IMG/VR virus record: IMGVR_UViG_3300036770_003780
Location: 1-35,385 of that record
DNA from: a virus
Reading direction: 5' to 3' (one strand)
Length of the DNA stretch: 35,385 nucleotides
Made by a program: the position numbers and the translations under genes. Below, piece after piece: positions 4,854 to 35,385 of the stretch. Under the pieces are notes generated by a model that had not been told where the DNA came from, did not search any database, and was given only the letters and a program-made list of their open reading frames with translations. Position 1 is the first letter of the stretch; each line of letters opens with the position of its first letter.

Positions 4854-7271
4854 TTAGAAGTTTAAGTTTGAGCTTCCAAATACCGTCCAAGCACCAGAAA
4901 GCCTCATGATTGTATAGCTAAATATATCTAGTTTATTAGAAGCTTGATTACTAGTTGGTACAGGGGCGGCCCCATTAGCCCATTTGATAGGAATACTTGC
5001 ACTTCCATTAATCGTCATAGTTGCTGGGTAATAACCAGTAGACTGGCCTTGATTAACAATAAAGTTAATAGTAAAAATACGACCATCTGTGGTTGGCACA
5101 TTGCTCAACTGTAGTTCTGGGTTAATTTGAGCGCTAGCAAAGTTAATATAAAAGATGTTTGCGTCCTGGTAGTTAGCAGAAATCGATGTTGCTGCGCCAG
5201 AGAGAGTGCCAAGATCATATACATCTTCATTCATCTCCTGAACTCTGATACCGCCAGTAAATGTGGGAGTACCAGTGAATGCGATATTTCCACTCACAGT
5301 GGCATCACCAGTGATTGTTGGTGCAGTGTTGCCGTTGGCAACCAAAGCCAAACTGTTCAGTTTCATTCTTCCATACGTTAAAGTATTAGAAGACAAATTG
5401 ATATCATTTGTTGGAGGAACATGAATTCCATTCGAACTAGCGGGAGGAATATTACCAATCAAGTACCAGTTGTTACCCTCAGACGAATCACCTCGCACCA
5501 AACCAGAAAAAGCCGTCTTGGTGTTAACCACAATATCGCCCGTAGCAAGGGTATTTGCAATAACAGTACCAAAGTTTGCTGTCACTGTGTTACCAGAAAC
5601 AGCAATCACAAAGTCTCTATTGCCATTAATTGCAGCAATATTAGAGTTAGCAATTGTTATTCTATCGCCATTAACAACGAGTGTATTGCTGATTTGAGGT
5701 GCAACTTCGCCATCGACATCACCAGCAGTAGGAATATCAGCATTTTCAACCGCATAAGAAACAGTATTAGCGCCAACAGTAGTAATTGTATGTGTACCAT
5801 CGAACGGCGCTCCAAGATTAGAAACAATAATCTCCTCACCAGCAACCATTGTGTGTGCAACACCAAGATCAACGGTTGCAACATTGCTGGTCAGAGTCTT
5901 CGTAGAAGTACCATAAGCCAATCTTCTAATCGTCAAAGTTGTATTAGAAGATTCAATAGAGCCGATATCAAAAGTATAATCAGAAGTAGTTCTCTTATAC
6001 TCAGCAATAAATCCTCTCTCAATTGCATCGCCAACAGCACCAGCGCCAGTAGAGAAAATAGGCGCAACAGAGGTAACTGTTTCAGCCTGGAAAGCACCAC
6101 CCGAAACATTAATAGATCCTTGAACAGTCAAGTCACCAAGAAGGTTGATGTTACCCTGCGTACCAATACCGCCAACCACAGTGAGAGCACCGGTCGTCGG
6201 AGACACAGAATCCGTTGTGATTTCAACATGGACGTTCTGATCGGGGAAAATGGTCATCTGAGTATTATCAGAAGCCAAACCACCAGCAGCGAAAACAATG
6301 TAGTTATTATTTCCATGACCACCTGTTGCAATAACAAGGTTACCGCCAGAGTTAGAGTTAGCAAGACCTTCCATGAAGATATAGCCATCACCCTTACCAG
6401 TGATTGTGAACTCTGGGTCATTGAAAGTTTCAGAGGTGATACCCATGTCAATCCAGCCAGTAGTATCATCACCATTTGCCATATAAGCAATAATGTCAGT
6501 AGAAGTATTTGCATCATTGCCTTCATTCTTAAAAGCAATCTGCGCAAAGTCATTCGTATTTACAGTAAATGTTGCAACAGCATCTTGAAGCGTGAGGCCA
6601 AATGTGGAGGCATTAGCACCAACATAAAGATTGGTTGAAAGATCAACAACATTACCATCAGCCTGATCAAAAGAAATATTAGAAACCCACTCAGTGGATG
6701 TACCATTAGTAGAAAGAAGCTTACCGGAGTTTGAAGATTGAGTAGCAACCTCTCCACCAGCAGACCCCTGGGCAAATAAGACCCAATCAGTATCATTATC
6801 AAATGAAACGGTATTTGATGTAAATTGAGCATTCGCTAAATAAGCATTACCAGCATAAGAAACAATGTCATATGGCTGATACAGCGTATTTGCAACCCAT
6901 GCACCTTCCCATTTAAATCCATAAGTTAAAAGCGACCATCTATTTAAATTAAAATCAGTATAAAACCCAATCTGGCTACCATTAGAATTATGGGCAGAAG
7001 AACAAATATACACTGCATTTGCATACACAACAATGTCATTTGGGAAATATTCAGTTGAGGGCGACCATACGCCTCTATAGTCAACGCCCTCTGCAAGTTT
7101 TGACCAATATGTTGCATTAGTAGGTAAATTACCTGATGTATTAGTAGCAAATTTATAGACATATGCGCTACCACCGTATGAAACAACATCATTAATTTCA
7201 TAAGTTGTATTAGCGTTATACGAGTCTCTGTAGTAGAACCTAATTCTACCTAAATCGATTGATTGTGACAT
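4854..7271 (-). CDS. Long tail fibre protein with three chitin-binding-like repeats
   Basis: This 805-aa protein begins with three units at about residues 15, 67 and 121, each of the form (YNANTTYEINDVVSYGGSAY, VWSPSTEYFPNDIVVYANAV, AWVANTLYQPYDIVSYAGNA). These resemble carbohydrate-binding module 5/12 repeats, which are common at the start of phage fibres. A long beta-rich body with many Asn, Thr and Gly follows, including GNINLLGDLTVQGSINVSGG, typical of trimeric fibre shafts. The C-terminus has no obvious chaperone or peptidase domain. The start overlaps the preceding stop (TAATG at 7269-7273), indicating coupling. The role is probably host recognition or virion attachment. The pairing of fibre and downstream glycine-rich protein resembles fibre plus tip adhesin. 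Confidence 0.8.
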   Translation of the reverse strand: MSQSIDLGRIRFYYRDSYNANTTYEINDVVSYGGSAYVYKFATNTSGNLPTNATYWSKLAEGVDYRGVWSPSTEYFPNDIVVYANAVYICSSAHNSNGSQIGFYTDFNLNRWSLLTYGFKWEGAWVANTLYQPYDIVSYAGNAYLANAQFTSNTVSFDNDTDWVLFAQGSAGGEVATQSSNSGKLLSTNGTSTEWVSNISFDQADGNVVDLSTNLYVGANASTFGLTLQDAVATFTVNTNDFAQIAFKNEGNDANTSTDIIAYMANGDDTTGWIDMGITSETFNDPEFTITGKGDGYIFMEGLANSNSGGNLVIATGGHGNNNYIVFAAGGLASDNTQMTIFPDQNVHVEITTDSVSPTTGALTVVGGIGTQGNINLLGDLTVQGSINVSGGAFQAETVTSVAPIFSTGAGAVGDAIERGFIAEYKRTTSDYTFDIGSIESSNTTLTIRRLAYGTSTKTLTSNVATVDLGVAHTMVAGEEIIVSNLGAPFDGTHTITTVGANTVSYAVENADIPTAGDVDGEVAPQISNTLVVNGDRITIANSNIAAINGNRDFVIAVSGNTVTANFGTVIANTLATGDIVVNTKTAFSGLVRGDSSEGNNWYLIGNIPPASSNGIHVPPTNDINLSSNTLTYGRMKLNSLALVANGNTAPTITGDATVSGNIAFTGTPTFTGGIRVQEMNEDVYDLGTLSGAATSISANYQDANIFYINFASAQINPELQLSNVPTTDGRIFTINFIVNQGQSTGYYPATMTINGSASIPIKWANGAAPVPTSNQASNKLDIFSYTIMRLSGAWTVFGSSNLNF

Positions 7272-21937: not shown

Positions 21938-23050
21938 ATGGAAGACTTTAATTTAAATTCTATTGACTTTGTAAATAATAGATTTAAAATATATAAAGAA
22001 TTAAGAGATAATCATCCATGCTGGTGGAGTGAAATCAACCAGTGTTGGATGATTTCTCGTTATAATGATGTTACTAAAGGATTGTCTGATTATAAAACAT
22101 TTTCTACTAAGTATGGTATAACACTTGAGACCAGAAAACCAATTGACTCTAATCGATCAAATATTTTATTTGGCGAGAATGACCCACCGGAACATCTTAA
22201 AGATAAAAAAATTTTAAAAAATATTATTAATGAAGCTAACTTAAATCAATTAATAATTGATATAAAAAAGTATCTTAACAATAGAATAAAGATAGATAGA
22301 GATATCTTTATTTTTAAAGATATTGCATCAGACTATCCATATGAAGCTTTATTTAGTTTAATAAATATTCAAAAAGATCAAGAGCTATTAATTAAACAAC
22401 AGTCAGAACTGCTTTTTAATAAAAGCACTCTTGAAGAACAATCAGACTCAATAATTACAATTGCCAAAAGTCTACTCTACAATCCACCAAGTTTTAAAAA
22501 AGAAGAAAATTTTACTGATTATGAAAGAATGTACTATGCTTCAATAATATTGATGTCTGGTGCAAAAACTGTTTCTGGATCTATATTAAATTTAGTTAAT
22601 GATATTTACAAAAATAAAGATCAATATTGTCAAGTTTTAAACAACAAAAAATGGATTCCTAATTTTGTAGAAGAGTCTTTGAGATTGAACGACACATCTC
22701 AATATATAGTCAGAACAGCATTGAAAGATATTTTTATTCATAATAAAAAAATTTGCACAGGTGATTCAGTCGTGTTCATAACAGGGGCAGCTCAAACTGA
22801 TGGCCCTAATGATTTATCAATATTTAATATCCATAGAAATTTTAAAAACTCAAATTTAGCTTTTGGTCATGGACCGCACCGATGCCCCGGCATATCGTTA
22901 GCCAGATTCCAGCTGCAAGAATTTTTAAAATACATAATAAATAATAACTTATTTATAGATATAAAAAATATTGAATATAAAGATAAAGCTGATTTTTCAA
23001 CAAGTATAATAAAAGAAATAGATGGAGTATTCATAAATTATGAAATTTAA
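21938..23050 (+). CDS. Cytochrome P450, first of three
   Basis: This 370-aa protein is a soluble bacterial-type P450. Recognisable parts: N-terminal CWMISRYNDVTKGLSDYKTF; NDPPEHLKDKK (the usual DPPEH motif); an I-helix region MSGAKTVSGS (~206-215, acid replaced by Lys but Thr211 kept); ExxR at E246-R249 (EESLR); and the haem loop FGHGPHRCPG with the thiolate ligand Cys316. P450s insert oxygen into organic substrates using electrons from a ferredoxin or reductase. No redox partner gene is visible, so host proteins would be needed. Very AT-rich. It follows the DUF2746-like gene by four bases and overlaps the second P450 by 11. The substrate is unknown. Confidence 0.88.
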   Translation: MEDFNLNSIDFVNNRFKIYKELRDNHPCWWSEINQCWMISRYNDVTKGLSDYKTFSTKYGITLETRKPIDSNRSNILFGENDPPEHLKDKKILKNIINEANLNQLIIDIKKYLNNRIKIDRDIFIFKDIASDYPYEALFSLINIQKDQELLIKQQSELLFNKSTLEEQSDSIITIAKSLLYNPPSFKKEENFTDYERMYYASIILMSGAKTVSGSILNLVNDIYKNKDQYCQVLNNKKWIPNFVEESLRLNDTSQYIVRTALKDIFIHNKKICTGDSVVFITGAAQTDGPNDLSIFNIHRNFKNSNLAFGHGPHRCPGISLARFQLQEFLKYIINNNLFIDIKNIEYKDKADFSTSIIKEIDGVFINYEI

Positions 23051-24155
23051 ATTTACTAGCGAGATGACGGATGTTGAATTAATTCAAATGTATAAAATAC
23101 TGCGGCGTGATTATCCAATCCTCTGGAGTGAGGATCATGAATGCTGGGTTATAAGTAGGTACAATGATGTAGTTAATGGTTTATCTGATTATAGTATATT
23201 TACATATAAAAATATAGATGCAGTAGTTGGCCGAGACTTACTATCGCTAACAAATAAAACAGATACATCAAGTTTTTCAATAGACCTGCCGCCGGACTAT
23301 CAGCGTAAAAGAAAAGCTTTAATGAATATATATCAAGATGCTATATCTAATGGAATAGAAGAAAAAATATACATAAATATAACTAATCTTTTTAATTTAC
23401 AAAAAAACAAAGGTGAGTTTGATTTAATAAAAAATGTTACCAACATTATTCCAATTTATACAATATGTGAAATAATCGGTTATGATTATTCTAATAGTAA
23501 AGATATGTTTCAAATAATTAGTAAATTATGGGAAAAAAATGATGTAAATACAAGAATATCTTTGTGTCGTGATGCATATAATTTTATTATATCAAACAAA
23601 CCAGAGATGCTTAAAAAAACTATATATAATAAAGAAGACATAATTTCTTTTATAATCGGTGTTTTTCTTGGCGGTTCAAATTCATTAACTGGCACAATGC
23701 CTAGCATTGCTTACTATTCAAATATATATAAGAAAGAATTTGAAAAAACATTTAAAAATGAAAAAAATAAAAATAACTTTATTCAAGAATCTTTAAGGCA
23801 TGCCCTAATTCAAAGTCATCTTATAAGAACAGCAGATAAAGATATTCAATTATATAATAAACAAATATTAAAAGGCCAAAGAGTTGCTTTTTTGATCGGT
23901 TCTGCTAATTTTGATGAGCAAAAGTTTGGTCCAGACGCAGATACTTTTTGTATCAATAGAAATTTTAATAAAATAAATCTTGTTTTTGGTCATGGAATGT
24001 ATAGATGTATTGGGGCATCTTTGGCAAATATTCAGTTGAAGTGTTTCCTTGATTTTATTATTAATAATAATATTAAAGTTAAAAACTTTTCTCTTAAAAA
24101 AGAAAGAAATTTTACAGGAACTCTTATTGAAAATTTAATAGTTGAATTTTCATAA
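23040..24155 (+). CDS. Cytochrome P450, second of three
   Basis: This 371-aa protein starts inside the end of the first P450. It has CWVISRYNDVVNGLSDYSIF near the N-terminus, SIDLPPDYQRKRKALM (DPPxH-like, His replaced), I-helix FLGGSNSLTG (~209-218, Ser in place of the usual Thr), ExxR at E250-R253 (QESLR), SANFDEQKFGPDADTF before the haem loop, and FGHGMYRCIG with Cys323 as ligand. All core residues for haem binding are present, so it is probably folded and haem-loaded. The altered I-helix suggests unusual oxygen activation. It is clearly a distant paralogue of both neighbours, not a recent copy. Confidence 0.87.
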   Translation: MKFKFTSEMTDVELIQMYKILRRDYPILWSEDHECWVISRYNDVVNGLSDYSIFTYKNIDAVVGRDLLSLTNKTDTSSFSIDLPPDYQRKRKALMNIYQDAISNGIEEKIYINITNLFNLQKNKGEFDLIKNVTNIIPIYTICEIIGYDYSNSKDMFQIISKLWEKNDVNTRISLCRDAYNFIISNKPEMLKKTIYNKEDIISFIIGVFLGGSNSLTGTMPSIAYYSNIYKKEFEKTFKNEKNKNNFIQESLRHALIQSHLIRTADKDIQLYNKQILKGQRVAFLIGSANFDEQKFGPDADTFCINRNFNKINLVFGHGMYRCIGASLANIQLKCFLDFIINNNIKVKNFSLKKERNFTGTLIENLIVEFS

Positions 24156-24161
24156 AAAATT

Positions 24162-25307
24162 ATGAATGATATAACAATTTTTTCATCAAGTAATATTCAA
24201 GAAACAATTGAATATTATAAAAATTTAAGACTAAATTCTCCAATTTTTTGGAGTGAAAAATACAATGCTTGGGTGTTGAGTAGGTATTCGGATATTAAAA
24301 ATATATTAATTGATGATAGTCATTTCCCAATAGGAGCCGGTAACAATATTAATGCTCTATCAAACAGTAGCTCAGAAGAAGAATTAATACAGAATAAATT
24401 AGATGGCTACGATAAGTATCATTTAATAGTAGAGTTTTATAAATTGTATTTTAAAGGGATGCCAACAGAATCTTTTATTCAAAAAAATTTATTATTACTA
24501 AATAAAGTTTTTTCATCAATACCAATTGAGCAAGAAATTAATTTAACACAAAAATTAAACTATCCATCATCTTTATCATTTATATATTCATTTATAAATT
24601 TTTCTGATATTGAAATTAATTTATATAATGAATTAATAAATAATGTAGATTATTTTAATTTTACTGAGATTTACCACAAAATAAGCCCAACAACTAATGA
24701 ATATATTTCAAATTTTAATATCTATAAAAATTTAATAGATTATTTGAATATAAATAATATAAATGAATATGACTATTATAAAAATATTTTAATAGAATTT
24801 GTTAATTCTCATATTAAAGAAACACAGTCAGCAATTACCGGATTGCAAAATGGAATTTTATTTGCAATTAACAATAATAAAAATACATTTTTAAATATGA
24901 ATAGCTCTAATTTATTAAATTTTGTAGATGAATCAATAAGATATATTACATTTAATTCTCACATATCTAGAAAGTGCTTACATGATTATGTTATTTATAA
25001 TCAAAAAATTAAAAGAGGAGATAATATTATATTATTACTTGGTTCTGCTAATTTTGATGAAACAATATTTGGTGAAGACTCTAATACTTTCAATATTAAT
25101 CGAAATATAAATATAAGAACATTAGAGTTTGGCATGGGCAATCATTTTTGTATTGCATACCGAGCAATCAGGCATCACTTACATATATACTTAAAAAATC
25201 TTTTTAAGATAAAAGACTCAATTAATATAACAAATATTATTTATGATAACAATTTTGTATGTCTTGGTTCTCCAATTAAAGAAATTTACGGTATTCTGAC
25301 TAAATAG
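24162..25307 (+). CDS. Divergent cytochrome P450, third of three
   Basis: The product is 381 aa. The same landmarks are present but altered: AWVLSRYSDIKNILIDDSHF; no DPPEH motif; an I-helix-like segment HIKETQSAITG (~217-227) keeping Glu-Thr but lacking the two glycines; ExxR at E257-R260 (DESIR); SANFDETIFGEDSNTF; and the haem loop FGMGNHFCIA with Cys330, where the Gly after the Cys is Ala. The Cys ligand and ExxR indicate a haem fold. The divergent pocket could mean a changed reaction or a non-oxygenase role. It lies six bases after the second P450, with no Shine-Dalgarno. It is the most AT-rich of the three. P450 membership is firm by landmarks; activity is not. Confidence 0.75.
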   Translation: MNDITIFSSSNIQETIEYYKNLRLNSPIFWSEKYNAWVLSRYSDIKNILIDDSHFPIGAGNNINALSNSSSEEELIQNKLDGYDKYHLIVEFYKLYFKGMPTESFIQKNLLLLNKVFSSIPIEQEINLTQKLNYPSSLSFIYSFINFSDIEINLYNELINNVDYFNFTEIYHKISPTTNEYISNFNIYKNLIDYLNINNINEYDYYKNILIEFVNSHIKETQSAITGLQNGILFAINNNKNTFLNMNSSNLLNFVDESIRYITFNSHISRKCLHDYVIYNQKIKRGDNIILLLGSANFDETIFGEDSNTFNINRNINIRTLEFGMGNHFCIAYRAIRHHLHIYLKNLFKIKDSINITNIIYDNNFVCLGSPIKEIYGILTK

Positions 25308-29594: not shown

Positions 29595-30245
29595 ATGAAT
29601 AAGCAGGTTACAAGTAAGCACGAAAAATGGTTGCAAGCATGCGACCACATGGCCCAACTCTTCTCCACATGCAGCAAAAAACAATACGCCGCATTCATCC
29701 TCGCCCCCAACAATCGGGTCGTAGGATTCGGATACAACGGATCACCACCAGGACACCCCCACTGCAACCAAGGAGGATGCCCCAGACTATCAGAACAATC
29801 ATCCCCAGGAACCACCTACGACAACTGTATAGCCAACCACGCTGAAGCAAACGCCCTACTCTGGTCAGATAGTAACTCAAGACAAAATGGCACGCTCATT
29901 ATCAATGGCCCGCCCTGTTTTGGATGCTGCAAGCTCATAGCCTCCTCAGGAATATCTAAGCTCGTACATTATGTTGACCCCGCCTACGAACAATGGCCAG
30001 ACTGCGTAGATTTCCTCCTAGGATCCGATATAGAGATTTTTAGCTACCGAAGAGCAGAAAACCCCCTCACCCCCGAATATTTTACAACCACGATGGCATT
30101 CCCACCCGAATGGACACAAGTAACAACATCATGGCCCGGCAAAGGCATCCCCTACAGCCCGCCCTGCGACATAGACGACTGGGAACCCCCCTCCGGCCCC
30201 ATCCACCGAGGCTTACTCCCCTCATGGCCGCCCAACCACCCCTAA
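29595..30245 (+). CDS. dCMP deaminase-like zinc enzyme
   Basis: I choose the ATG at 29595 (MNKQVTSKHEKWLQACDHMA) because of the TATAAT spacing; starts at 29580 and 29592 are alternatives. The product is 216 aa. The deaminase signature is intact: HAE (H82, E84 in ANHAEANALL) and PCxxC (PPCFGCCKL), which hold the catalytic zinc. A second Cys/His set before it (HPHCNQGGC) resembles the structural zinc site of phage dCMP deaminases. These convert dCMP to dUMP, feeding ThyX. The last ~60 residues form an unusual Pro/Trp-rich tail (PPEWTQVTTSWPGKGIP, then PPSGPIHRGLLPSWPP) not needed for the fold. Composition is much more GC-rich than the P450s. Confidence 0.85.
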   Translation: MNKQVTSKHEKWLQACDHMAQLFSTCSKKQYAAFILAPNNRVVGFGYNGSPPGHPHCNQGGCPRLSEQSSPGTTYDNCIANHAEANALLWSDSNSRQNGTLIINGPPCFGCCKLIASSGISKLVHYVDPAYEQWPDCVDFLLGSDIEIFSYRRAENPLTPEYFTTTMAFPPEWTQVTTSWPGKGIPYSPPCDIDDWEPPSGPIHRGLLPSWPPNHP

Positions 30246-30353
30246 ACCAACCTAACCAAAAATTGAGTATATATTCGTACAGTGTTACTTTGTTTTTTTC
30301 TTCTTACCAATTTTCCTCTGTTAACCATAGTCAATACCTCTTGACATAATAAC

Positions 30354-30395
30354 GCTGGAGTACAAGGGACGCATGCGGCTATCTTGTACTCCAGC
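30354..30395 (+). repeat. Promoter-upstream inverted repeat, unit 1
   Basis: Perfect 13-bp arms (GCTGGAGTACAAG / CTTGTACTCCAGC) flank a 16-base centre with GACGCATGCGGCT. The arm sequence differs from the other units, yet both arms differ together. An AT-rich box (TTGAGTATATATTC) lies about 90 bases upstream here, against 22-31 bases in the other units. Confidence 0.85.
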
Positions 30396-30420
30396 AGAGT
30401 AGGTGTTGTGGTTTGTTCAG

Positions 30421-30452
30421 GTTTAGTGCGGTTTTGTAGCGTTTGCTATGCT
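30421..30452 (+). promoter_or_regulatory. Repeat-family promoter, unit 1
   Basis: GTTTAGTGCG box, then TATGCT at 30447-30452, 18 bases after TTAGTG. It starts exactly 25 bp after the inverted repeat. The leader that follows (ACCAGGGAACAAACGAACTGG) lacks the standard bulged-A hairpin and is the outlier of the set. Confidence 0.7.
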
Positions 30453-30493
30453 AGGTATCACCAGGGAACAAACGAACTGGGGAAGGGATAGAA

Positions 30494-30751
30494 ATGCTGT
30501 ACATCATGGCAGTTTTGATCGGTGCGCTTGCTCTCACACCGATCATTCTCACACTCGGTCAGAAACGACCAGGCGAGGGGATAGCGTTCGGCTTGGTCAT
30601 TGGGAACCTCATCACCACCTCGCTCGGCTGGCTGGTCGGAATGAAGATCGGTTTCGAGGTCGCTGAGATTTGGGGCGCAATGGTCGGACTGTTCGGCACT
30701 CTCGCACTCTCAACATATGCCCTCGTCCTCTCGGACGACATGGCTTCCTGA
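30494..30751 (+). CDS. Small membrane protein (unit 1)
   Basis: The product is 85 aa and almost entirely hydrophobic, with about three membrane segments: LYIMAVLIGALALTPIILTL, GIAFGLVIGNLITTSLGWLV and IWGAMVGLFGTLALSTYALV, separated by short charged turns (GQKRPGEG). GGGAAGGGATAG precedes the ATG. It is a single-gene transcription unit with its own terminator. Possible roles include membrane-depolarising, superinfection-exclusion or holin-like functions, but nothing in the sequence decides between these. The GC-rich composition is shared with the other units. Confidence 0.6.
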   Translation: MLYIMAVLIGALALTPIILTLGQKRPGEGIAFGLVIGNLITTSLGWLVGMKIGFEVAEIWGAMVGLFGTLALSTYALVLSDDMAS

Positions 30752-30756
30752 GACCG

Positions 30757-30784
30757 CACCCCCTGAGCTTCGGCTCAGGGGGTG
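30757..30784 (+). terminator. Terminator, unit 1
   Basis: Perfect 12-bp stem CACCCCCTGAGC / GCTCAGGGGGTG closed by a TTCG tetraloop, five bases after the stop codon. No U-tract follows; GAACCCCCGCCC follows instead, a sequence shared with other units. Confidence 0.8.
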
Positions 30785-30845
30785 AACCCCCGCCCCTATG
30801 CCCTACCAATTACCTTACTTTGAATATATATTCATTACCCGGCAG

Positions 30846-30887
30846 GCTGGCGTGCAAATGACGCATGCGGCTGTTTTGAACGCCAGC
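30846..30887 (+). repeat. Promoter-upstream inverted repeat, unit 2
   Basis: Arms GCTGGCGTGCAAA / TTTGAACGCCAGC (one mismatch) around TGACGCATGCGGCTGT. The AT-rich box TTGAATATATATTC is at 30820. Confidence 0.85.
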
Positions 30888-30912
30888 GTTTGTGGTGTGC
30901 CTTGTTGCGAAG

Positions 30913-30944
30913 GTTTAGTGCGTGTTTCTGACTCATGCTATGCT
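30913..30944 (+). promoter_or_regulatory. Repeat-family promoter, unit 2
   Basis: GTTTAGTGCG box and TATGCT (30939-30944) with an 18-base spacer, 25 bp after the inverted repeat. The predicted start is at about 30951. Confidence 0.75.
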
Positions 30945-30950
30945 GTTATC

Positions 30951-30972
30951 ACGGCAGGGAACACCTGACCGT
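30951..30972 (+). promoter_or_regulatory. Bulged-A leader hairpin, unit 2
   Basis: Lower stem ACGG/CCGT, one unpaired A (30968) on the 3' side, upper stem CAGG/CCTG, loop GAACA. It lies at the predicted 5' end of the RNA, eight bases before the Shine-Dalgarno (AAGGAG). Confidence 0.75.
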
Positions 30973-30989
30973 TCACGAAGGAGTTGATC

Positions 30990-31238
30990 ATGGTCAACAT
31001 CTTTCCCCATCCGATCACGGTGATCACACCACCGTGTGCGCTTTGCGGAGCGCGTTCGAAGATGGAACTTCCCGTCGAACCGTATCTCGAATGGCTCGGC
31101 GGTAAGCACATCTCCGAAACCGGACTGGCTACCCTCTCGCAAGAGGATCGGCTTCTGTTGATCGAAGGAGATCACCAGAACTGCTGGGCGAGGGAAGCCG
31201 AAGCCCTCGCTGAACTCTACGGCGACGACGAATGGTGA
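30990..31238 (+). CDS. Small Cys/His-containing protein (unit 2)
   Basis: I choose ATG at 30990, with GGAG six bases upstream, over TTG at 30984. The product is 82 aa. It has PCALCGARSK near the start, then LATLSQEDRLLLIEGDHQNC, W, and an acidic end (ALAELYGDDEW). The C, C, H, C set (CALC...HQNCW) could bind a metal. Small proteins with an H..CW motif occur in actinobacteriophages, but I do not know their role. Monocistronic, with promoter, leader hairpin and terminator of the repeat family. Confidence 0.6.
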   Translation: MVNIFPHPITVITPPCALCGARSKMELPVEPYLEWLGGKHISETGLATLSQEDRLLLIEGDHQNCWAREAEALAELYGDDEW

Positions 31239-31242
31239 GAGA

Positions 31243-31270
31243 CTCCCCCGACCCGAAAGGGTCGGGGGAG
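31243..31270 (+). terminator. Terminator, unit 2
   Basis: Perfect 12-bp stem CTCCCCCGACCC / GGGTCGGGGGAG with a GAAA tetraloop, four bases after the stop codon, followed by AACCCCCGTCCG. Confidence 0.8.
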
Positions 31271-31335
31271 AACCCCCGTCCGATTGCCCCTATTGCACCT
31301 TCAGATTGAATAGATATATTCTCTACACCGGTTGG

Positions 31336-31377
31336 ATTGGCGTGCGAATGACGCATGCGGCTGCTTTGAACGCCAAC
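31336..31377 (+). repeat. Promoter-upstream inverted repeat, unit 3
   Basis: Arms TTGGCGTGCGAA / TTTGAACGCCAA around TGACGCATGCGGCTGC; the outermost pair is mismatched. The AT-rich box starts at 31306, 30 bases upstream. Confidence 0.82.
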
Positions 31378-31402
31378 TTTTATGATGTGAAGATGTGCTG
31401 AC

Positions 31403-31434
31403 GTTTAGTGCGGTTTCGGGGCTTATGATAAGGT
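31403..31434 (+). promoter_or_regulatory. Repeat-family promoter, unit 3
   Basis: GTTTAGTGCG box and TAAGGT (31429-31434) with an 18-base spacer, 25 bp after the inverted repeat. Confidence 0.7.
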
Positions 31435-31441
31435 AATGGTC

Positions 31442-31463
31442 ACGGCAGGGAAGTCCTGACCGT
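31442..31463 (+). promoter_or_regulatory. Bulged-A leader hairpin, unit 3
   Basis: ACGG/CCGT lower stem, bulged A at 31459, CAGG/CCTG upper stem, loop GAAGT. AAAGGAGG follows five bases beyond. Confidence 0.75.
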
Positions 31464-31480
31464 TCACAAAGGAGGTTGCC

Positions 31481-31717
31481 ATGCGACCTGCTTGTTCCGA
31501 CCGGACGCAGGAGATGTTTCCTGCCTACGGTGAGTTGCGACGGGTCTGGCTCAAACGAGCCAGTGTCCTGATCGAACAACTCTGCTCAACTTGCCCCATG
31601 CGTAGCGACTGCTACGACATGGGCAAGGACGAGGGTCACGGCATCTGGGGTGGAACCACCGAGAAAGATCGGGGCTTCCAGTTCGACGGGTTCCGCAGGG
31701 AGTCACGCAAGAAGTGA
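31481..31717 (+). CDS. WhiB-like iron-sulfur regulator (unit 3)
   Basis: This 78-aa protein has the WhiB signature: an isolated N-terminal Cys (C5), then LCSTCPMRSDCYD (CxxCxxxxxC, ligands C34, C37, C43), then GIWGG. The four cysteines would hold a [4Fe-4S] cluster. WhiB proteins bind sigma-A region 4 and tune transcription, and occur only in actinobacteria and their phages, so this gene is the best host marker in the window. The basic C-terminus (FRRESRKK) suits DNA binding. AAAGGAGG precedes the ATG. It might control the repeat-family promoters around it, which is an inference. Confidence 0.88.
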   Translation: MRPACSDRTQEMFPAYGELRRVWLKRASVLIEQLCSTCPMRSDCYDMGKDEGHGIWGGTTEKDRGFQFDGFRRESRKK

Positions 31718-31721
31718 CCAA

Positions 31722-31743
31722 CTCCCCCGCTTCGGCGGGGGAG
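31722..31743 (+). terminator. Terminator, unit 3
   Basis: Perfect 9-bp stem CTCCCCCGC / GCGGGGGAG with a TTCG tetraloop, followed by AACCCCCGTCC. Confidence 0.8.
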
Positions 31744-31800
31744 AACCCCCGTCCAATCGGACCAGACACTCTCAGCAATTGAATATATATACTTGGGGCA

Positions 31801-31842
31801 GCTGGTGTGCGAATGACGCATGCGGCTGTTTTGAACACCAGC
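31801..31842 (+). repeat. Promoter-upstream inverted repeat, unit 4
   Basis: Arms GCTGGTGTGCGAA / TTTGAACACCAGC around TGACGCATGCGGCTGT. The AT-rich box is at 31779. Confidence 0.85.
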
Positions 31843-31867
31843 ATTTGTGATGGTGATGAATGGCGAC

Positions 31868-31899
31868 GTTTAGTGCGGTTTCTGGACATGGTGTAAGAT
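31868..31899 (+). promoter_or_regulatory. Repeat-family promoter, unit 4
   Basis: GTTTAGTGCG box and TAAGAT (31894-31899), 18-base spacer, 25 bp after the inverted repeat. Confidence 0.75.
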
Positions 31900-31905
31900 G
31901 TTCTC

Positions 31906-31927
31906 ATGGCAGAGAGGATCTGACCAT
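31906..31927 (+). promoter_or_regulatory. Bulged-A leader hairpin, unit 4
   Basis: ATGG/CCAT lower stem, bulged A at 31923, CAGA/TCTG upper stem, loop GAGGA. Two base pairs differ from the other units by compensatory changes. AAGGAGG follows at 31932. Confidence 0.78.
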
Positions 31928-31944
31928 TCACAAGGAGGCGTTCA

Positions 31945-32154
31945 ATGAGCGTCTACTGGCGAGTCAGTTACGTCGATCAGAACGGCGACGATCAGGAGCA
32001 CACCGAGAACGACAACGGTGAGACCCTGGAAGATTCCGTCATGGCGAGCGATCATGCCGAATGGCTGATCGACACGGGCGAGGCGACCCAGGCATTCGTG
32101 GAGAAAGTGAAGACCACGATTGAGGTCTGGGTGCTCAAGGAGATCGTCGCCTGA
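31945..32154 (+). CDS. Small acidic protein (unit 4)
   Basis: The product is 69 aa: VYWRVSYVDQNGDDQEHTEN, DNGETLEDSVMASDHAEWLI, then a strand (TTIEVWVLKEIVA). It is strongly acidic in the middle, with two beta-like ends, which could suit a DNA-mimic or inhibitor type protein, but that is speculation. AAGGAGG lies six bases before the ATG. Monocistronic in the repeat family. No family recognised. Confidence 0.55.
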   Translation: MSVYWRVSYVDQNGDDQEHTENDNGETLEDSVMASDHAEWLIDTGEATQAFVEKVKTTIEVWVLKEIVA

Positions 32155-32165
32155 TCTGGTGTGAA

Positions 32166-32185
32166 GCCCCCGCTTCGGCGGGGGC
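32166..32185 (+). terminator. Terminator, unit 4
   Basis: Perfect 8-bp stem GCCCCCGC / GCGGGGGC with a TTCG tetraloop, followed by GGAACACCGGCCCG. Confidence 0.78.
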
Positions 32186-32252
32186 GGAACACCGGCCCGA
32201 ATGAGCCAGGTATTTACCAGAATTGAATAGATATATATTACATACCCGGCGT

Positions 32253-32294
32253 GCTGGTGTGCAAATGACGCATGCGGCTGTTTTGAACATCAGC
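32253..32294 (+). repeat. Promoter-upstream inverted repeat, unit 5
   Basis: Arms GCTGGTGTGCAAA / TTTGAACATCAGC (one G-T pair and one mismatch) around TGACGCATGCGGCTGT. The AT-rich box starts at 32223, 30 bases upstream. Confidence 0.83.
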
Positions 32295-32319
32295 GTTTAC
32301 GTGTTGGTGAATGTTCTGA

Positions 32320-32351
32320 GTTTAGTGCGATTTCTTGGCATGATGTATGCT
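32320..32351 (+). promoter_or_regulatory. Repeat-family promoter, unit 5
   Basis: GTTTAGTGCG box and TATGCT (32346-32351), 18-base spacer, 25 bp after the inverted repeat. Confidence 0.75.
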
Positions 32352-32357
32352 GTTATC

Positions 32358-32380
32358 ACGGCAGGGGAAACCTTGACCGT
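32358..32380 (+). promoter_or_regulatory. Bulged-A leader hairpin, unit 5
   Basis: ACGG/CCGT lower stem, bulged A at 32376, upper stem CAGGG/CCTTG with one G-U pair, GAAA tetraloop. One base pair longer than in the other units. Confidence 0.72.
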
Positions 32381-32399
32381 TCCTAGGAAAGGTAGTGCC

Positions 32400-32711
32400 A
32401 TGTCCGAACACAATAAGGTGAACGACTCGCTCACCATGATCACCGGTGAGTGCTTGGTCATCGCTTTCACGATGATCATTCGACTCATCGAAGAAGCGCC
32501 CGACACCATTCCGGCGGAGGCTCTCGTCGGCGTTGTGAGCCTCTTCTGCCAGGCTGGGATCGACGGTGAGATGAAGAACATCGAACGTGCCATTCGTGAC
32601 TCGTTCCCCGAAGTTTCTTCTCTCATCGGGACTTTGCCCTGGGGCAACCAGTCCGAACCTGGCTGGCTGTACAACTGGATGAGCCTCGCTGTTCTCGAAA
32701 GCGAACTCTGA
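32400..32711 (+). CDS. Hypothetical protein (unit 5)
   Basis: I choose ATG at 32400 (MSEHNKVNDSLTMITGECLV); the frame stays open further upstream but through the promoter. The product is 103 aa and mostly helical: VIAFTMIIRLIEEAPDTIPA, EALVGVVSLFCQAGIDGEMK, then a Trp-rich end (LPWGNQSEPGWLYNW). AGGAAAGG precedes the start. The hydrophobic stretch at ~20-30 is too short to be a clear membrane helix. No family recognised. Confidence 0.55.
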   Translation: MSEHNKVNDSLTMITGECLVIAFTMIIRLIEEAPDTIPAEALVGVVSLFCQAGIDGEMKNIERAIRDSFPEVSSLIGTLPWGNQSEPGWLYNWMSLAVLESEL

Positions 32712-32730
32712 CGGGACTCGCCATCCCAAC

Positions 32731-32752
32731 CTGCCCCGCTTCGGCGGGGCAG
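32731..32752 (+). terminator. Terminator, unit 5
   Basis: Perfect 9-bp stem CTGCCCCGC / GCGGGGCAG with a TTCG tetraloop, followed by GACACCAGCCCGA. Confidence 0.8.
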
Positions 32753-32817
32753 GACACCAGCCCGATCAACACACCCAGACCTTTAAGTTGAATATATATA
32801 TTCTCTATACCCGGCGT

Positions 32818-32859
32818 GTTGGTGTGCGAAGGACGCATGCGGCTATTTTGAACACCAAC
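32818..32859 (+). repeat. Promoter-upstream inverted repeat, unit 6
   Basis: Arms GTTGGTGTGCGAA / TTTGAACACCAAC around GGACGCATGCGGCTAT. The second arm base has changed on both sides (T with A) relative to unit 4, a compensatory change. The AT-rich box starts at 32788, 30 bases upstream. Confidence 0.85.
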
Positions 32860-32884
32860 TTTCTTGGTTTGAGTTATCTTCTGA

Positions 32885-32916
32885 GTTTAGTGCTGTTTCT
32901 AGGCATAGGCTAAGAT
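32885..32916 (+). promoter_or_regulatory. Repeat-family promoter, unit 6
   Basis: GTTTAGTGCT box and TAAGAT (32911-32916), 18-base spacer, 25 bp after the inverted repeat. Confidence 0.73.
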
Positions 32917-32922
32917 GTAATC

Positions 32923-32944
32923 ACGGCAGAGAACATCTGACCGT
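32923..32944 (+). promoter_or_regulatory. Bulged-A leader hairpin, unit 6
   Basis: ACGG/CCGT lower stem, bulged A at 32940, CAGA/TCTG upper stem (compensatory change), loop GAACA. AGGAG follows at 32951. Confidence 0.77.
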
Positions 32945-32961
32945 TCCCATAGGAGATGATG

Positions 32962-33177
32962 ATGAACTCATCTACTCACCACCACTTCCACAAGAACGAT
33001 TCGATCATGGTGACGATTCGTGACCACGGCAAGACGGTCACGGTCGGCTTCCACGCTATCGGCTCCGGCGACATTACGCTGTACATTCCAGCCGAGAAGT
33101 TGATCGGTGTCGTCACTGCCATTCTCACCCAGCACGCAGCGTTGATGAACGAGCAGGCTGAGAAGGCTCTCCAGTAG
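32962..33177 (+). CDS. Small protein (unit 6)
   Basis: Three ATGs are adjacent (32956, 32959, 32962). I choose the third, which puts GGAG six bases upstream. The product is 71 aa: a His-rich start (NSSTHHHFHKNDS), strands (IMVTIRDHGKTVTVGFHAIG), and a helix (IGVVTAILTQHAALMNEQAE). It could be a small alpha/beta protein. The His-rich start may bind metal. No family recognised. Monocistronic in the repeat family. Confidence 0.55.
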   Translation: MNSSTHHHFHKNDSIMVTIRDHGKTVTVGFHAIGSGDITLYIPAEKLIGVVTAILTQHAALMNEQAEKALQ

Positions 33178-33193
33178 GAAGTGGGGAAAGCAA

Positions 33194-33217
33194 GGGGGGT
33201 CGCTTCGGCGGCCCCCC
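33194..33217 (+). terminator. Terminator, unit 6
   Basis: 10-bp stem GGGGGGTCGC / GCGGCCCCCC (one G-U pair) with a TTCG tetraloop, followed by AACACCCGCCCGA. Confidence 0.75.
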
Positions 33218-33281
33218 AACACCCGCCCGAATGACCCATCCCATCTCAGGATTGAATAGATATATATATAATACTGGGCGT

Positions 33282-33323
33282 GCTGGTGTACAAAGGACGC
33301 ATGCGGCTAATTTGTACACCAGC
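33282..33323 (+). repeat. Promoter-upstream inverted repeat, unit 7
   Basis: Perfect 13-bp arms GCTGGTGTACAAA / TTTGTACACCAGC around GGACGCATGCGGCTAA. The AT-rich box starts at 33252, 30 bases upstream. Confidence 0.87.
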
Positions 33324-33348
33324 ACTTAGGGTGTCTGCCTTCTTCCAT

Positions 33349-33380
33349 GTTTAGTGCGGTTTCCGAGCGTATGCTAATCT
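33349..33380 (+). promoter_or_regulatory. Repeat-family promoter, unit 7
   Basis: GTTTAGTGCG box and TAATCT (33375-33380), 18-base spacer, 25 bp after the inverted repeat. Confidence 0.73.
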
Positions 33381-33386
33381 GTTGTC

Positions 33387-33407
33387 ACGGCAGGAGATCC
33401 TGACCGT
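33387..33407 (+). promoter_or_regulatory. Bulged-A leader hairpin, unit 7
   Basis: ACGG/CCGT lower stem, bulged A at 33403, CAGG/CCTG upper stem, loop AGAT. AAGGAG follows at 33412. Confidence 0.75.
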
Positions 33408-33423
33408 TCACAAGGAGCAAGCC

Positions 33424-33789
33424 ATGTCAGAACCCACTAAGGTGAACCTCGCCAGTCTGCGAGGGGAACGACGCAAGAAGGGACGGGTGGCTACTGCTGA
33501 CCCGGCTCTCATCGCCAACATTCAGGCACTGGACCACCAGGAAGCCCTGACCTACGACGAAGCATTCCTCACCTCATCGACCTACAAGGCCGAAGAGAAG
33601 AAGGCTCTCGCCGTCATCATGCGAGAGAAGCAGTGCGACGAGAACGAAGCACGGGCCGTGTTCGAGAACCGGTGGATTTCACGCTACCGCCAACGAGCAC
33701 AGTCGGCGTGGAGCCTCGCCGGAATGCCCGACAAGGAGATGGATTTCGTCATTCTGAATGACGGACGCATTCTCATCGGGCGCAAGTAG
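33424..33789 (+). CDS. Basic protein with RYRQRAQSAW motif (unit 7), paralogue of unit 8
   Basis: The start is ATG 33424 with AAGGAG six bases upstream. The product is 121 aa. It shares with unit 8: (L/I)RxERRKKGRVA near the N-terminus, a variable helical middle, and a well conserved end (ENRWISRYRQRAQSAWSLAG, then DFVILNDGRILIGRK). The basic clusters suggest nucleic-acid binding. No known family is recognised. It is flanked by two inverted copies of the GACGCATGCGGCT repeat, unlike units 1-6. Confidence 0.65.
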   Translation: MSEPTKVNLASLRGERRKKGRVATADPALIANIQALDHQEALTYDEAFLTSSTYKAEEKKALAVIMREKQCDENEARAVFENRWISRYRQRAQSAWSLAGMPDKEMDFVILNDGRILIGRK

Positions 33790-33812
33790 CACCACTCGCT
33801 CCTGCGGAAGAT

Positions 33813-33845
33813 AGCCCCGTGACCATTCCCCCTGGTCACGGGGCT
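33813..33845 (+). terminator. Terminator, unit 7
   Basis: Perfect 13-bp stem AGCCCCGTGACCA / TGGTCACGGGGCT with a seven-base loop, followed by TATCTTT. It differs in sequence and loop from the TTCG-type terminators of units 1 and 3-6. Confidence 0.82.
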
Positions 33846-33858
33846 TATCTTTGCCCTT

Positions 33859-33900
33859 GCTGGTGTTCAAAGCAGCCGCATGCGTCATTTGAACACCAGC
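33859..33900 (-). repeat. Inverted copy of the repeat, downstream of unit 7
   Basis: Perfect 13-bp arms GCTGGTGTTCAAA / TTTGAACACCAGC around a centre containing AGCCGCATGCGTC, the reverse complement of the core. No GTTTAGTGCG box lies beside it on the minus strand, so it is not a promoter copy. Confidence 0.85.
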
Positions 33901-33955
33901 TCTTGCCATACCACCACTCTCAGGGTTTAATATATACTTTCTCTACACCGGGTTT

Positions 33956-33997
33956 GCTGGTGTACAAAGGACGCACGCGGCTATTTTGTACACCAGC
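33956..33997 (+). repeat. Promoter-upstream inverted repeat, unit 8
   Basis: Perfect 13-bp arms GCTGGTGTACAAA / TTTGTACACCAGC around GGACGCACGCGGCTAT; the core has C in place of T (GACGCACGCGGCT). The AT-rich box (TTTAATATATAC) is at 33925. Confidence 0.87.
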
Positions 33998-34022
33998 AAT
34001 TAGGCTTTGGTTATTCTCTGGA

Positions 34023-34054
34023 ATTTAGTGCGCTTTCCTGACCTATGATAAGGT
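34023..34054 (+). promoter_or_regulatory. Repeat-family promoter, unit 8
   Basis: ATTTAGTGCG box and TAAGGT (34049-34054), 18-base spacer, 25 bp after the inverted repeat. Confidence 0.72.
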
Positions 34055-34061
34055 AAGGGGT

Positions 34062-34082
34062 ACAGCAGGGCAACCTGACTGT
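34062..34082 (+). promoter_or_regulatory. Bulged-A leader hairpin, unit 8
   Basis: ACAG/CTGT lower stem (third pair changed from G-C to A-U on both sides), bulged A at 34078, CAGG/CCTG upper stem, GCAA tetraloop. AAAGG follows before the ATG. Confidence 0.78.
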
Positions 34083-34098
34083 TCTGAAAGGTAATCCA

Positions 34099-34458
34099 AT
34101 GTCCAACCCCAAGGTTATTGACCTGAGTGCGATCAGGGCTGAGCGCAGGAAAAAGGGCAGAGTTGCCAAACACGATCCGCAATTCATTGCTGATCTTTTG
34201 TCCCTGGAACATGGTGAGGGTTTGCCCTACCATGAAGCCTACCTGGACAATGACGAATACCAGCAGGAATTCGCAAAGGCTAAGCCTGGCATTGCCAAGG
34301 CTAATCCTGACGCTGATCCTGAGGCGGTGTTCCAAAACCGTTGGCTCTCCCGCTACCGACAGCGAGCGCAATCCGCTTGGAATTCCGCTGGGCTTCCAAA
34401 GGATGAGTTCGATTTTGTCGTCCTGACTGACGGACGAGTAATTATCGGACGTAAGTAA
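34099..34458 (+). CDS. Basic protein with RYRQRAQSAW motif (unit 8), paralogue of unit 7
   Basis: The product is 119 aa. Shared with unit 7: VIDLSAIRAERRKKGRVA, QNRWLSRYRQRAQSAWNSAG, DFVVLTDGRVIIGRK. The middle (about residues 30-75) differs, so the two are old paralogues. The conserved basic ends suggest an RNA- or DNA-binding protein, so these two proteins are candidates to bind the repeated elements; this is inference. The unit is less GC-rich than unit 7. It is followed by a strong intrinsic terminator and an inverted copy of the repeat. Confidence 0.65.
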   Translation: MSNPKVIDLSAIRAERRKKGRVAKHDPQFIADLLSLEHGEGLPYHEAYLDNDEYQQEFAKAKPGIAKANPDADPEAVFQNRWLSRYRQRAQSAWNSAGLPKDEFDFVVLTDGRVIIGRK

Positions 34459-34461
34459 TAC

Positions 34462-34501
34462 AAAGAGCCAGGTGCTAACAAAGCACCTGGCTCTTTTTTT
34501 T
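34462..34501 (+). terminator. Strong intrinsic terminator, unit 8
   Basis: Perfect 15-bp stem (AAAGAGCCAGGTGCT / AGCACCTGGCTCTTT) with AACAA loop, running into eight or more T residues. This is the most canonical terminator in the window. Confidence 0.93.
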
Positions 34502-34508
34502 GACTTTG

Positions 34509-34547
34509 TTGGTGTACGTTTAGCCGCGTGCGTCAAACGTACACCAA
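34509..34547 (-). repeat. Inverted copy of the repeat, downstream of unit 8
   Basis: Perfect 13-bp arms TTGGTGTACGTTT / AAACGTACACCAA directly abut AGCCGCGTGCGTC, the reverse complement of the unit 8 core variant GACGCACGCGGCT. The arms differ from unit 8's but still pair. A T-run follows, so it might also terminate transcription. Confidence 0.83.
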
Positions 34548-34631
34548 TTTTTTTGTAAAAGACTTTGAGGAAAATTCAGTATGTAATTGGAATCATGGCT
34601 CTTACTAATTATGGATGTCTACAGGGTAATG

Positions 34632-34671
34632 CGGTTGTACAAAAACATGTGGACATGTTTTTGTACAACCG
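34632..34671. repeat. Long perfect palindrome with 2-base centre
   Basis: CGGTTGTACAAAAACATGT and its exact reverse complement are separated only by GG, giving 19-bp arms. It lacks the GACGCATGCGGCT core but shares TTGTACAA-type arms with units 1, 7 and 8. It could be a degenerate family member or an operator. Confidence 0.8.
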
Positions 34672-34674
34672 TTT

Positions 34675-34789
34675 GTAAATGTCTTTTACAAACTCTTTTT
34701 TAATGTATTCGAGTAATGACTCTCTGCGTTTGTATATAAGTGCGGCAAATGTATTACTAATTATGGTAAATGTTTTTTACAAACTCTTT
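34675..34789 (+). repeat. Direct repeat pair
   Basis: GTAAATGT(C/T)TTTTACAAAC followed by TCTTT occurs at 34675-34698 and 34766-34789 (24 bases, one mismatch). A second direct repeat, TTACTAATTATGG, is at 34602-34614 and 34754-34766. The spacing suggests tandem duplication or iterons. Confidence 0.7.
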
Positions 34790-35385
34790 GTAAGAAAAAA
34801 AATGCTAAAAATTTTTGGGGGTTGGATCAGACAGGTCAGTAACCAGGGCTATACGTATAGCTATACCCTCTGAGAACGTAGAGGGATTACCTTGGCCGGC
34901 CTAAGGGGATATTCCTATAGAGATAGAGGAGATATCTAACCCGCCTAGTATTTGACTACACCCATGTAATCTGCGGGTCATTAGGATAATTCTATTCAGA
35001 ATAAGTACCGTCTTATTCTCCATAGATAGAAGGAGGATAGATACCTAGATAGAGAGGAGAGTAGAGACCATCTGACTAGGGAAGATATGATAATTAATAA
35101 TATAGTTTGTTGAAAACCCCTTAATAATGGGCTTGATTCAACTTACTTGATATAAAGTATTATATTATCCTAAGGAATAGACTATTTATCTAGAAAAAAC
35201 ACCAAAAACACACCAAAAACAATAAAAAACAAACAAAAAAACACACAAAAAAATGGGCTTAGGCGACCACAAAAGACCACCTAAACCCATAAATCTGCAC
35301 ACAAACAGAACAACAACAAGAATGGAATATATTCTAGGTAAATGGAGCACACAACACACATGATCTATAGACGTATGTACGTATA
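34790..35385. other. Non-coding, structure-rich right end
   Basis: I see no credible gene here. Features: GCTATACGTATAGC (34848-34861, perfect palindrome); hairpin CCCTCT/AGAGGG (34866-34885); GGCCGGCC within a larger imperfect palindrome near 34890; hairpin AGAATAAG/CTTATTCT (34998-35019); a GA-rich stretch at about 35025-35075; hairpin GTTGAA...TTCAAC (35109-35142); an A/C-only tract (35194-35253, no G, one T); and inverted repeat ATGGGCTTAGG/CCTAAACCCAT (35253-35290) enclosing two GACCAC copies. This may be an origin, packaging or end region, but nothing decides which. Confidence 0.6.

Follow-up and report, generated by a model that had tools for sequence, protein, structure and literature searches.

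We analysed a stretch of viral DNA (the window), 35,385 bases long, which is the entire IMG/VR record IMGVR_UViG_3300036770_003780 and a fragment of a tailed phage. Between 30.3 and 34.5 kb it carries eight single-gene units, and in units 2–8 a short hairpin with a single bulged A is predicted to form the very front end of the mRNA. On the evidence of the sequence and its relatives, we consider it reasonably probable that this hairpin is a 5′-terminal stem-loop that shields the beginning of the message, and not the landing site of a specific protein. This kind of element is known; its systematic use across a phage array appears to be new, and we found no description of such arrays in the open-licence papers that were searched.

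A covarying hairpin in seven leaders of the window

The hairpins of units 2–8 lie on the + strand and span 21–23 nucleotides (nt): a lower stem of four base pairs (bp), one bulged A on the 3′ strand, an upper stem of 4–5 bp and a loop of 4–5 nt. Folding, covariation and a covariance-model match agree on each of them. That of unit 2 (30951–30972; ACGG.CAGG-GAACA-CCTG-A-CCGT; model match of 43.3 bits) is followed by those of unit 3 (31442–31463, ahead of a WhiB-like gene), unit 4 (31906–31927), unit 5 (32358–32380, with an upper stem of 5 bp that includes one G-U pair), unit 6 (32923–32944), unit 7 (33387–33407) and unit 8 (34062–34082, with the lower stem ACAG/CTGT). In the order of the units, the loops read GAACA, GAAGT, GAGGA, GAAA, GAACA, AGAT and GCAA. 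Every architectural feature that a first-pass annotation had described for this hairpin is present in the sequence, including variable loops combined with a bulged A that is invariant in all seven copies. Each hairpin is the minimum-free-energy fold of its own leader, and the Shine-Dalgarno sequence is mostly open in these folds, with weak local pairs in some leaders. Because the element is so short, single-sequence fold energies are only modestly lower than those of shuffled sequences (z of −0.3 to −1.8). Unit 1 carries a degenerate hairpin, ACCAG...CUGG, with 4 bp from position +2.

All 54 scorable pair cells of the seven copies pair (100%), and double changes occur at three of the eight pairs, as against none in controls with slid partners. 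The compensatory changes reported earlier are all there: unit 4 has double changes in both stems, C-G to U-A and, in the upper stem, G-C to A-U; the same upper-stem double change is found in unit 6, and unit 8 has G-C to A-U in the lower stem. The covariation score was 0.250, compared with 0.144 ± 0.028 for shuffles (2 of 500 reached 0.250) and at most 0.071 for the slid controls. The lone G-U pair, in unit 5, suits the + strand; on the opposite strand it would give C-A. When a covariance model was built, as the annotation had proposed, its search of the window recovered exactly the seven copies, at E values of 1e-11 to 1.3e-7, with the next match at E 0.63. As the copies are paralogous modules and hence not fully independent, we regard their covariation as strong but not independent evidence. 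A pseudoknot between the UUC tail and the loop was rejected: without a linker the tail could not reach across the stem, and in unit 8 the pairing is impossible.

Beyond the window, the hairpin model was run on 82 related loci and on 34 whole records, Blueeyedbeauty and DSL-LC01 among them, with no credible match. The exact leader pattern had no match in IMG/VR, and positions 30,200–35,385 had no match near any gathering score in Rfam. The nine matches to a promoter-to-hairpin pattern were all judged to be chance, and the seven matches to a palindrome-core pattern were all chance on inspection. The spacers that flank the hairpins in the window are only 45–56% identical, so there has been enough time for the structure to be lost.

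A promoter of a type also seen in sister phages precedes the unit 2 hairpin at 30914–30944 (+ strand), with a TTTAGTGCG box and the −10 hexamer TATGCT (30939–30944). Equivalent promoters on the same strand serve units 3–8 (31404–31434, 31869–31899, 32321–32351, 32886–32916, 33350–33380 and 34024–34054), and the promoter box of unit 1 is at 30422 (+ strand). From unit 2 to unit 8, the −10 hexamers are TATGCT, TAAGGT, TAAGAT, TATGCT, TAAGAT, TAATCT and TAAGGT. Between the end of the −10 and the first A of the stem there are 6 nt (units 2 and 4–7) or 7 nt (units 3 and 8). This is the usual distance from a −10 to the start of transcription, and the first base of the stem is therefore predicted to be +1. 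The earlier suggestion that the hairpin forms the extreme 5′ end of the RNA can thus be refined to a stem that starts 6–7 nt past the −10, at the predicted +1.

Helices at the predicted transcription start of sister phages

Sister arrays were located through the arms of a palindrome that lies upstream of the promoters, together with the promoter itself, independently of any hairpin. The palindrome-arm search gave 16 matches in environmental phages, several of which (e.g. L114, L121, L123 and L124) lie in coding sequence and look like chance. The same kind of array is present in G021, G022 (with the near-identical G024, G025 and G027), G023 and G033. The portals of G021, G022, G025, G027 and G033 are 70–71% identical to the window portal, and no portal match was found in the G023 and G024 contigs. 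The promoters of the sister arrays resemble those of the window; their leader hairpins differ in sequence.

Seven of the nine units of G022 have a leader that starts with GUCGG and contains a matching 3′ arm, and the upper stem changes in step. The other two are leaderless, with the ATG at the hairpin-start position, 6 or 7 nt past the same −10, which provides an internal calibration of +1. A stem within about 0–4 nt of the 5′ end follows from the predicted +1, and these leaderless units agree with it. In G023, stems of the forms UGUCG, UGUUG, UGCCG and UGCGG with complementary 3′ arms stand at the predicted +1 in 6 of 12 units; pairing in the lower stem is complete (100%), and four of its cells show double changes. 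In G021 and G033 about a third of the units (6/17) pass the helix threshold defined below, one of them with a stem of 12–13 bp (L149:19658). The annotation had named a lack of covariation in a larger set as one outcome that would speak against the element; what we found is independent covariation within the sister phages.

For onset statistics, 46 units were located by the promoter pattern alone, replacing an earlier set in which some units had been chosen by eye. We counted a helix as strong if it scored at least 14 and began on nt 7 or 8 past the −10. Because this threshold and these offsets were set with the first arrays already in view, the figures are descriptive. Such a helix stands at the predicted +1 in 26 of the 46 units, compared with an average of 1.97 and never more than 6 among 500 dinucleotide shuffles of the leaders; without the window, the count is 19 of 38 against a shuffle mean of 1.45 and a maximum of 7. 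The gap between the observed and the null values is too large to hinge on the exact choice of threshold or offset. Helix starts are most frequent at these offsets and fall almost to zero 14–24 nt downstream, and over the first 4 nt the pairing probability averages 0.70, as compared with 0.29–0.38 when the start is moved by 10–30 nt. Across the sister phages, the predicted position and the pairing are kept; the sequence, loop and bulge of the hairpin are not.

Some sister leaders have further pairing options. At the G023 locus L148, an alternative helix (of the AGTGTC/GACACT type) overlaps the +1 stem in the leaders at 154, 710, 1817, 2370 and 5007; the two pairings are mutually exclusive, and the alternative could be a switch or a second site. 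An apparent H-type pseudoknot in G023 (GUGUC/GACAC with CGGGA/UCCCG) was rejected, as its loops would be 0–1 nt long, and is rather an alternative pairing. In G021, the leader at L149:18117 could form a long-range counterpart of the +1 stem, since its first bases (GTGTAAGGCAAGCAGG) are able to pair with CCTGCTTGCTTTACAC, which lies about 100 nt further downstream.

The bulged A

Some sister-phage stems lack the bulge. Others have one: in G023 a U or A is bulged from the 5′ strand at 154, 2370 and 5007, and in G022 the 3′ strand carries a bulged A at 6966 and a bulged C at 5103. As judged from these leaders, a bulge recurs among phages, and its side and base do not. The modules of one phage resemble each other more closely than they resemble those of other phages. 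This pattern suggests that modules were repeatedly duplicated or homogenised, and it weakens any inference from the invariance of the bulged A in the window. Most simply, this invariant A would be a lineage-specific form spread by module duplication, possibly with a second reason for its retention.

A putative 5′-terminal protective stem-loop and its alternatives

Every small gene of the array has a promoter to itself, from which transcription is predicted to start on the opening base of the stem or no more than 1 nt away. The resulting mRNA would begin with almost no unpaired nt, and its Shine-Dalgarno sequence would follow a few nt past the stem. Such an end would be hidden from an RppH-type pyrophosphohydrolase, from the 5′-sensing RNase E and from the 5′–3′ exonuclease RNase J; the short single-gene transcripts would be long-lived, with the ribosome site kept free, as in the principle known from ompA. 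Both RppH and 5′-sensing RNase E require a single-stranded 5′ end, which accounts for stabilisation by 5′ stem-loops, and the Bacillus RppH requires two or more unpaired nt (PMC3997798). Mycobacteria possess both RNase E and RNase J (PMC10641625), and leader effects on mRNA half-life have been measured in Mycobacterium smegmatis (PMC7148126). A stem that runs from +1 and ends before the Shine-Dalgarno sequence is what an end-protection mechanism demands. We infer that transcription starts where predicted, that these are early genes and that the hairpin stabilises the message.

The stem-loops of Escherichia coli ompA and papA and of Bacillus subtilis aprE and ermC are built alike: the stem stands at the 5′ end or close to it, and the ribosome site beyond it is accessible. 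The effect of such stabilising stem-loops has been described as independent of the hairpin sequence (PMC3997798, PMC7148126). In the phages, too, it is structure that is retained, with covariation within phages and different sequences between them, and the downstream ribosome site is unpaired in most of the leader folds. Unlike the ompA-type cases, the array has hairpins on seven of eight units; these covary, are common in the sister phages and, in the window, contain an invariant bulged A, and their stabilising effect would be an extrapolation from the known systems.

Several points weigh against end protection. The helix is not universal, the threshold being passed by 6 of 12 units in G023 and 6 of 17 in G021 and G033, and the +1 sites are themselves predictions. 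Furthermore, all seven copies in the window agree in GCAG/CUGAC, in the bulged A and in the UUC that follows the stem, although their spacers are only about 50% identical; simple end protection would not need this much constancy. This invariance of the bulged A, CAG/CTGAC and TTC in all seven copies would be expected of a sequence-specific RNA operator, in which a phage or host protein binds the bulged A and GCAG/CUGAC and jointly controls the translation or stability of the seven mRNAs. The hairpin lies directly upstream of the Shine-Dalgarno sequence, as would suit such an operator, and a 3′-bulged A after 4 bp also occurs in one G022 leader (GUCG-GGGG..CCCC-A-CGAC). We nevertheless regard an operator as unlikely: the hairpin sequence was found in this phage only, the sisters have retained its position and pairing and differ in sequence, loop and bulge, and no candidate coat-like RNA-binding protein was noticed among the small ORFs (open reading frames) searched. 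The annotation had offered two readings, a protective 5′ element and an operator comparable to that of the MS2 coat protein. The former is supported by sister phages that retain a +1 helix without its sequence, loop or bulge; the latter finds no support as a general explanation, with sister stems that are unbulged or bulged on either strand. The MS2 operator is likewise a short hairpin close to a ribosome site and has one bulged A. In MS2, however, this A belongs to the 5′ strand and is separated by 2 bp from a tetraloop with conserved bases that the coat protein contacts, whereas that of the window is on the 3′ strand, 4–5 bp below a loop of 4–5 nt whose size and bases vary, in a hairpin whose position is fixed to +1. 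A phage-encoded regulator that reads the bulged-A hairpin and joins the seven mRNAs into one post-transcriptional regulon, each sister phage having its own hairpin–regulator pair, is in our view rather improbable.

The hairpin could instead act as a translational insulator or standby element that prevents masking of the Shine-Dalgarno sequence and boosts translation, with stability as a by-product. The Shine-Dalgarno sequence does follow the stem in a mostly unpaired stretch of the folds, and the leaders are short and uniform; yet an insulator could lie anywhere in the leader, and the exact start of the helix at +1 would be unexplained, so we hold this, too, to be unlikely, by a shade more than an RNA operator. 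A DNA operator for a dimeric repressor, overlapping +1 and with an incidental RNA fold, would account for an inverted repeat at +1 in an array where repeated palindromes are common. We rejected it as very improbable: single copies contain double changes, varying loop and arm lengths shift the half-site distance by 1–2 bp in the window and by far more in G022 and G023, the bulge is one-sided, and the G-U pair is tolerated only in the transcribed sense. We give still less credence to a signal in the nascent RNA, for instance put-like antitermination past the terminator of each gene: every unit does end in a GC hairpin followed by another unit, but the element is far shorter and more variable than the put site of HK022, and with a promoter for each gene read-through would be unneeded.

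Should the start sites be as predicted, a base-paired 5′ end would have been selected many times within one genome and repeatedly across its relatives. This would be comparative evidence that 5′-end-dependent mRNA decay limits phage expression in a probably actinobacterial host, and the leaders would form a natural set for testing 5′-end protection in actinobacteria. The combination of palindrome, promoter, +1 hairpin and small gene could serve as a signature by which to spot such arrays in uncultured phages. The SAS/ESAS elements of cluster K mycobacteriophages are also repeats ahead of many small actinophage genes, placed just upstream of the start codons; they are set apart from the window array by description and not by sequence, and we know of no +1 hairpin in them. 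The host-takeover module of SPO1 comprises clustered small genes that act on the host (PMC6873191). It belongs to a different phage group and is an analogy for the array only. To our knowledge it has no +1 hairpins.

Likely host, array layout and palindromes

The window portal is about 45% identical to portals of Streptomyces phages such as Blueeyedbeauty (Stanwilliamsviridae), and the nearest relatives of the family in culture infect Streptomyces. Ribonucleotide reductase, glycosyltransferase-like and ThyX genes are neighbours both in the window and in Blueeyedbeauty, where the glycosyltransferase-like label for the window comes from sequence inspection. Because of the portal identity, this common neighbourhood and the WhiB-like unit 3, an actinobacterial host is likely.

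In each unit an AT-rich box is followed by a 42-bp palindrome, a TTTAGTGC box, the −10 and the leader; the small ORF comes next, and a GC hairpin ends the unit. According to the ORF list and family searches, unit 2 encodes an unknown small protein (30990–31238) and unit 3 a member of the WhiB family (31481–31717; Pfam PF02467, E 5e-9); units 4, 5 and 6 have small ORFs at 31945–32154, 32400–32711 and 32962–33177, all on the + strand. The ORFs of unit 7 (33424–33789) and its paralogue in unit 8 (34099–34458; 53% identity), on the same strand, belong to a small KVNL/KINL family that is also last in the sister arrays: two or three paralogues close the arrays of the window, G021, G022, G023 and G033 (relatives at L148, L153, L109 and L122). 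Their link to the two window members is weak but consistent, with best E values of about 1e-6 to 1e-5 in a database of 12 sequences. The family has no Pfam or PHROG name and no match in annotated phages, and no relatives of unit 7 were found in IMG/VR. Searched against phage records, the unit proteins gave weak WhiB matches only, and the remaining unit proteins searched gave none.

The palindrome upstream of unit 1 (30354–30395, + strand) has the conserved loop GACGCATGCGGCT. Those of units 2–8 are at 30846–30887, 31336–31377, 31801–31842, 32253–32294, 32818–32859, 33282–33323 and 33956–33997, and reversed copies lie at 33859–33900 and 34509–34547. The arms of these ten palindromes are variable and largely complementary; the loop is asymmetric and almost invariant, reading GACGCACGCGGCT in unit 8. 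The palindromes of the sister phages have similar arms (CTGGNGTNCAA) and a different loop (in G023, GGTGCGCATAGCACC), and the element may be a DNA-binding or recombination site. A TTGAATATATATTC-like box stands before every palindrome of the array (30263, 30820, 31306, 31779, 32223, 32788, 33252 and 33926) and resembles the promoter box of G021 (TTGAGTATATATTC); a similar box, ATTGAGTATATA, is found downstream of the dCMP deaminase gene in the relatives L095 and L096. In L095 (G002) and L120 (G029), the region that corresponds to the array is dotted with TCTAACGTTAGA repeats, genes included, in an operator- or stoperator-like manner.

Elsewhere in the window, three adjacent cytochrome P450-like genes lie at 21938–25307 (Pfam p450, E 4e-9 to 1e-10), and the AT-rich non-coding stretch past the array contains an inverted repeat of 19 perfectly matched bp around a 2-nt loop (34632–34671).

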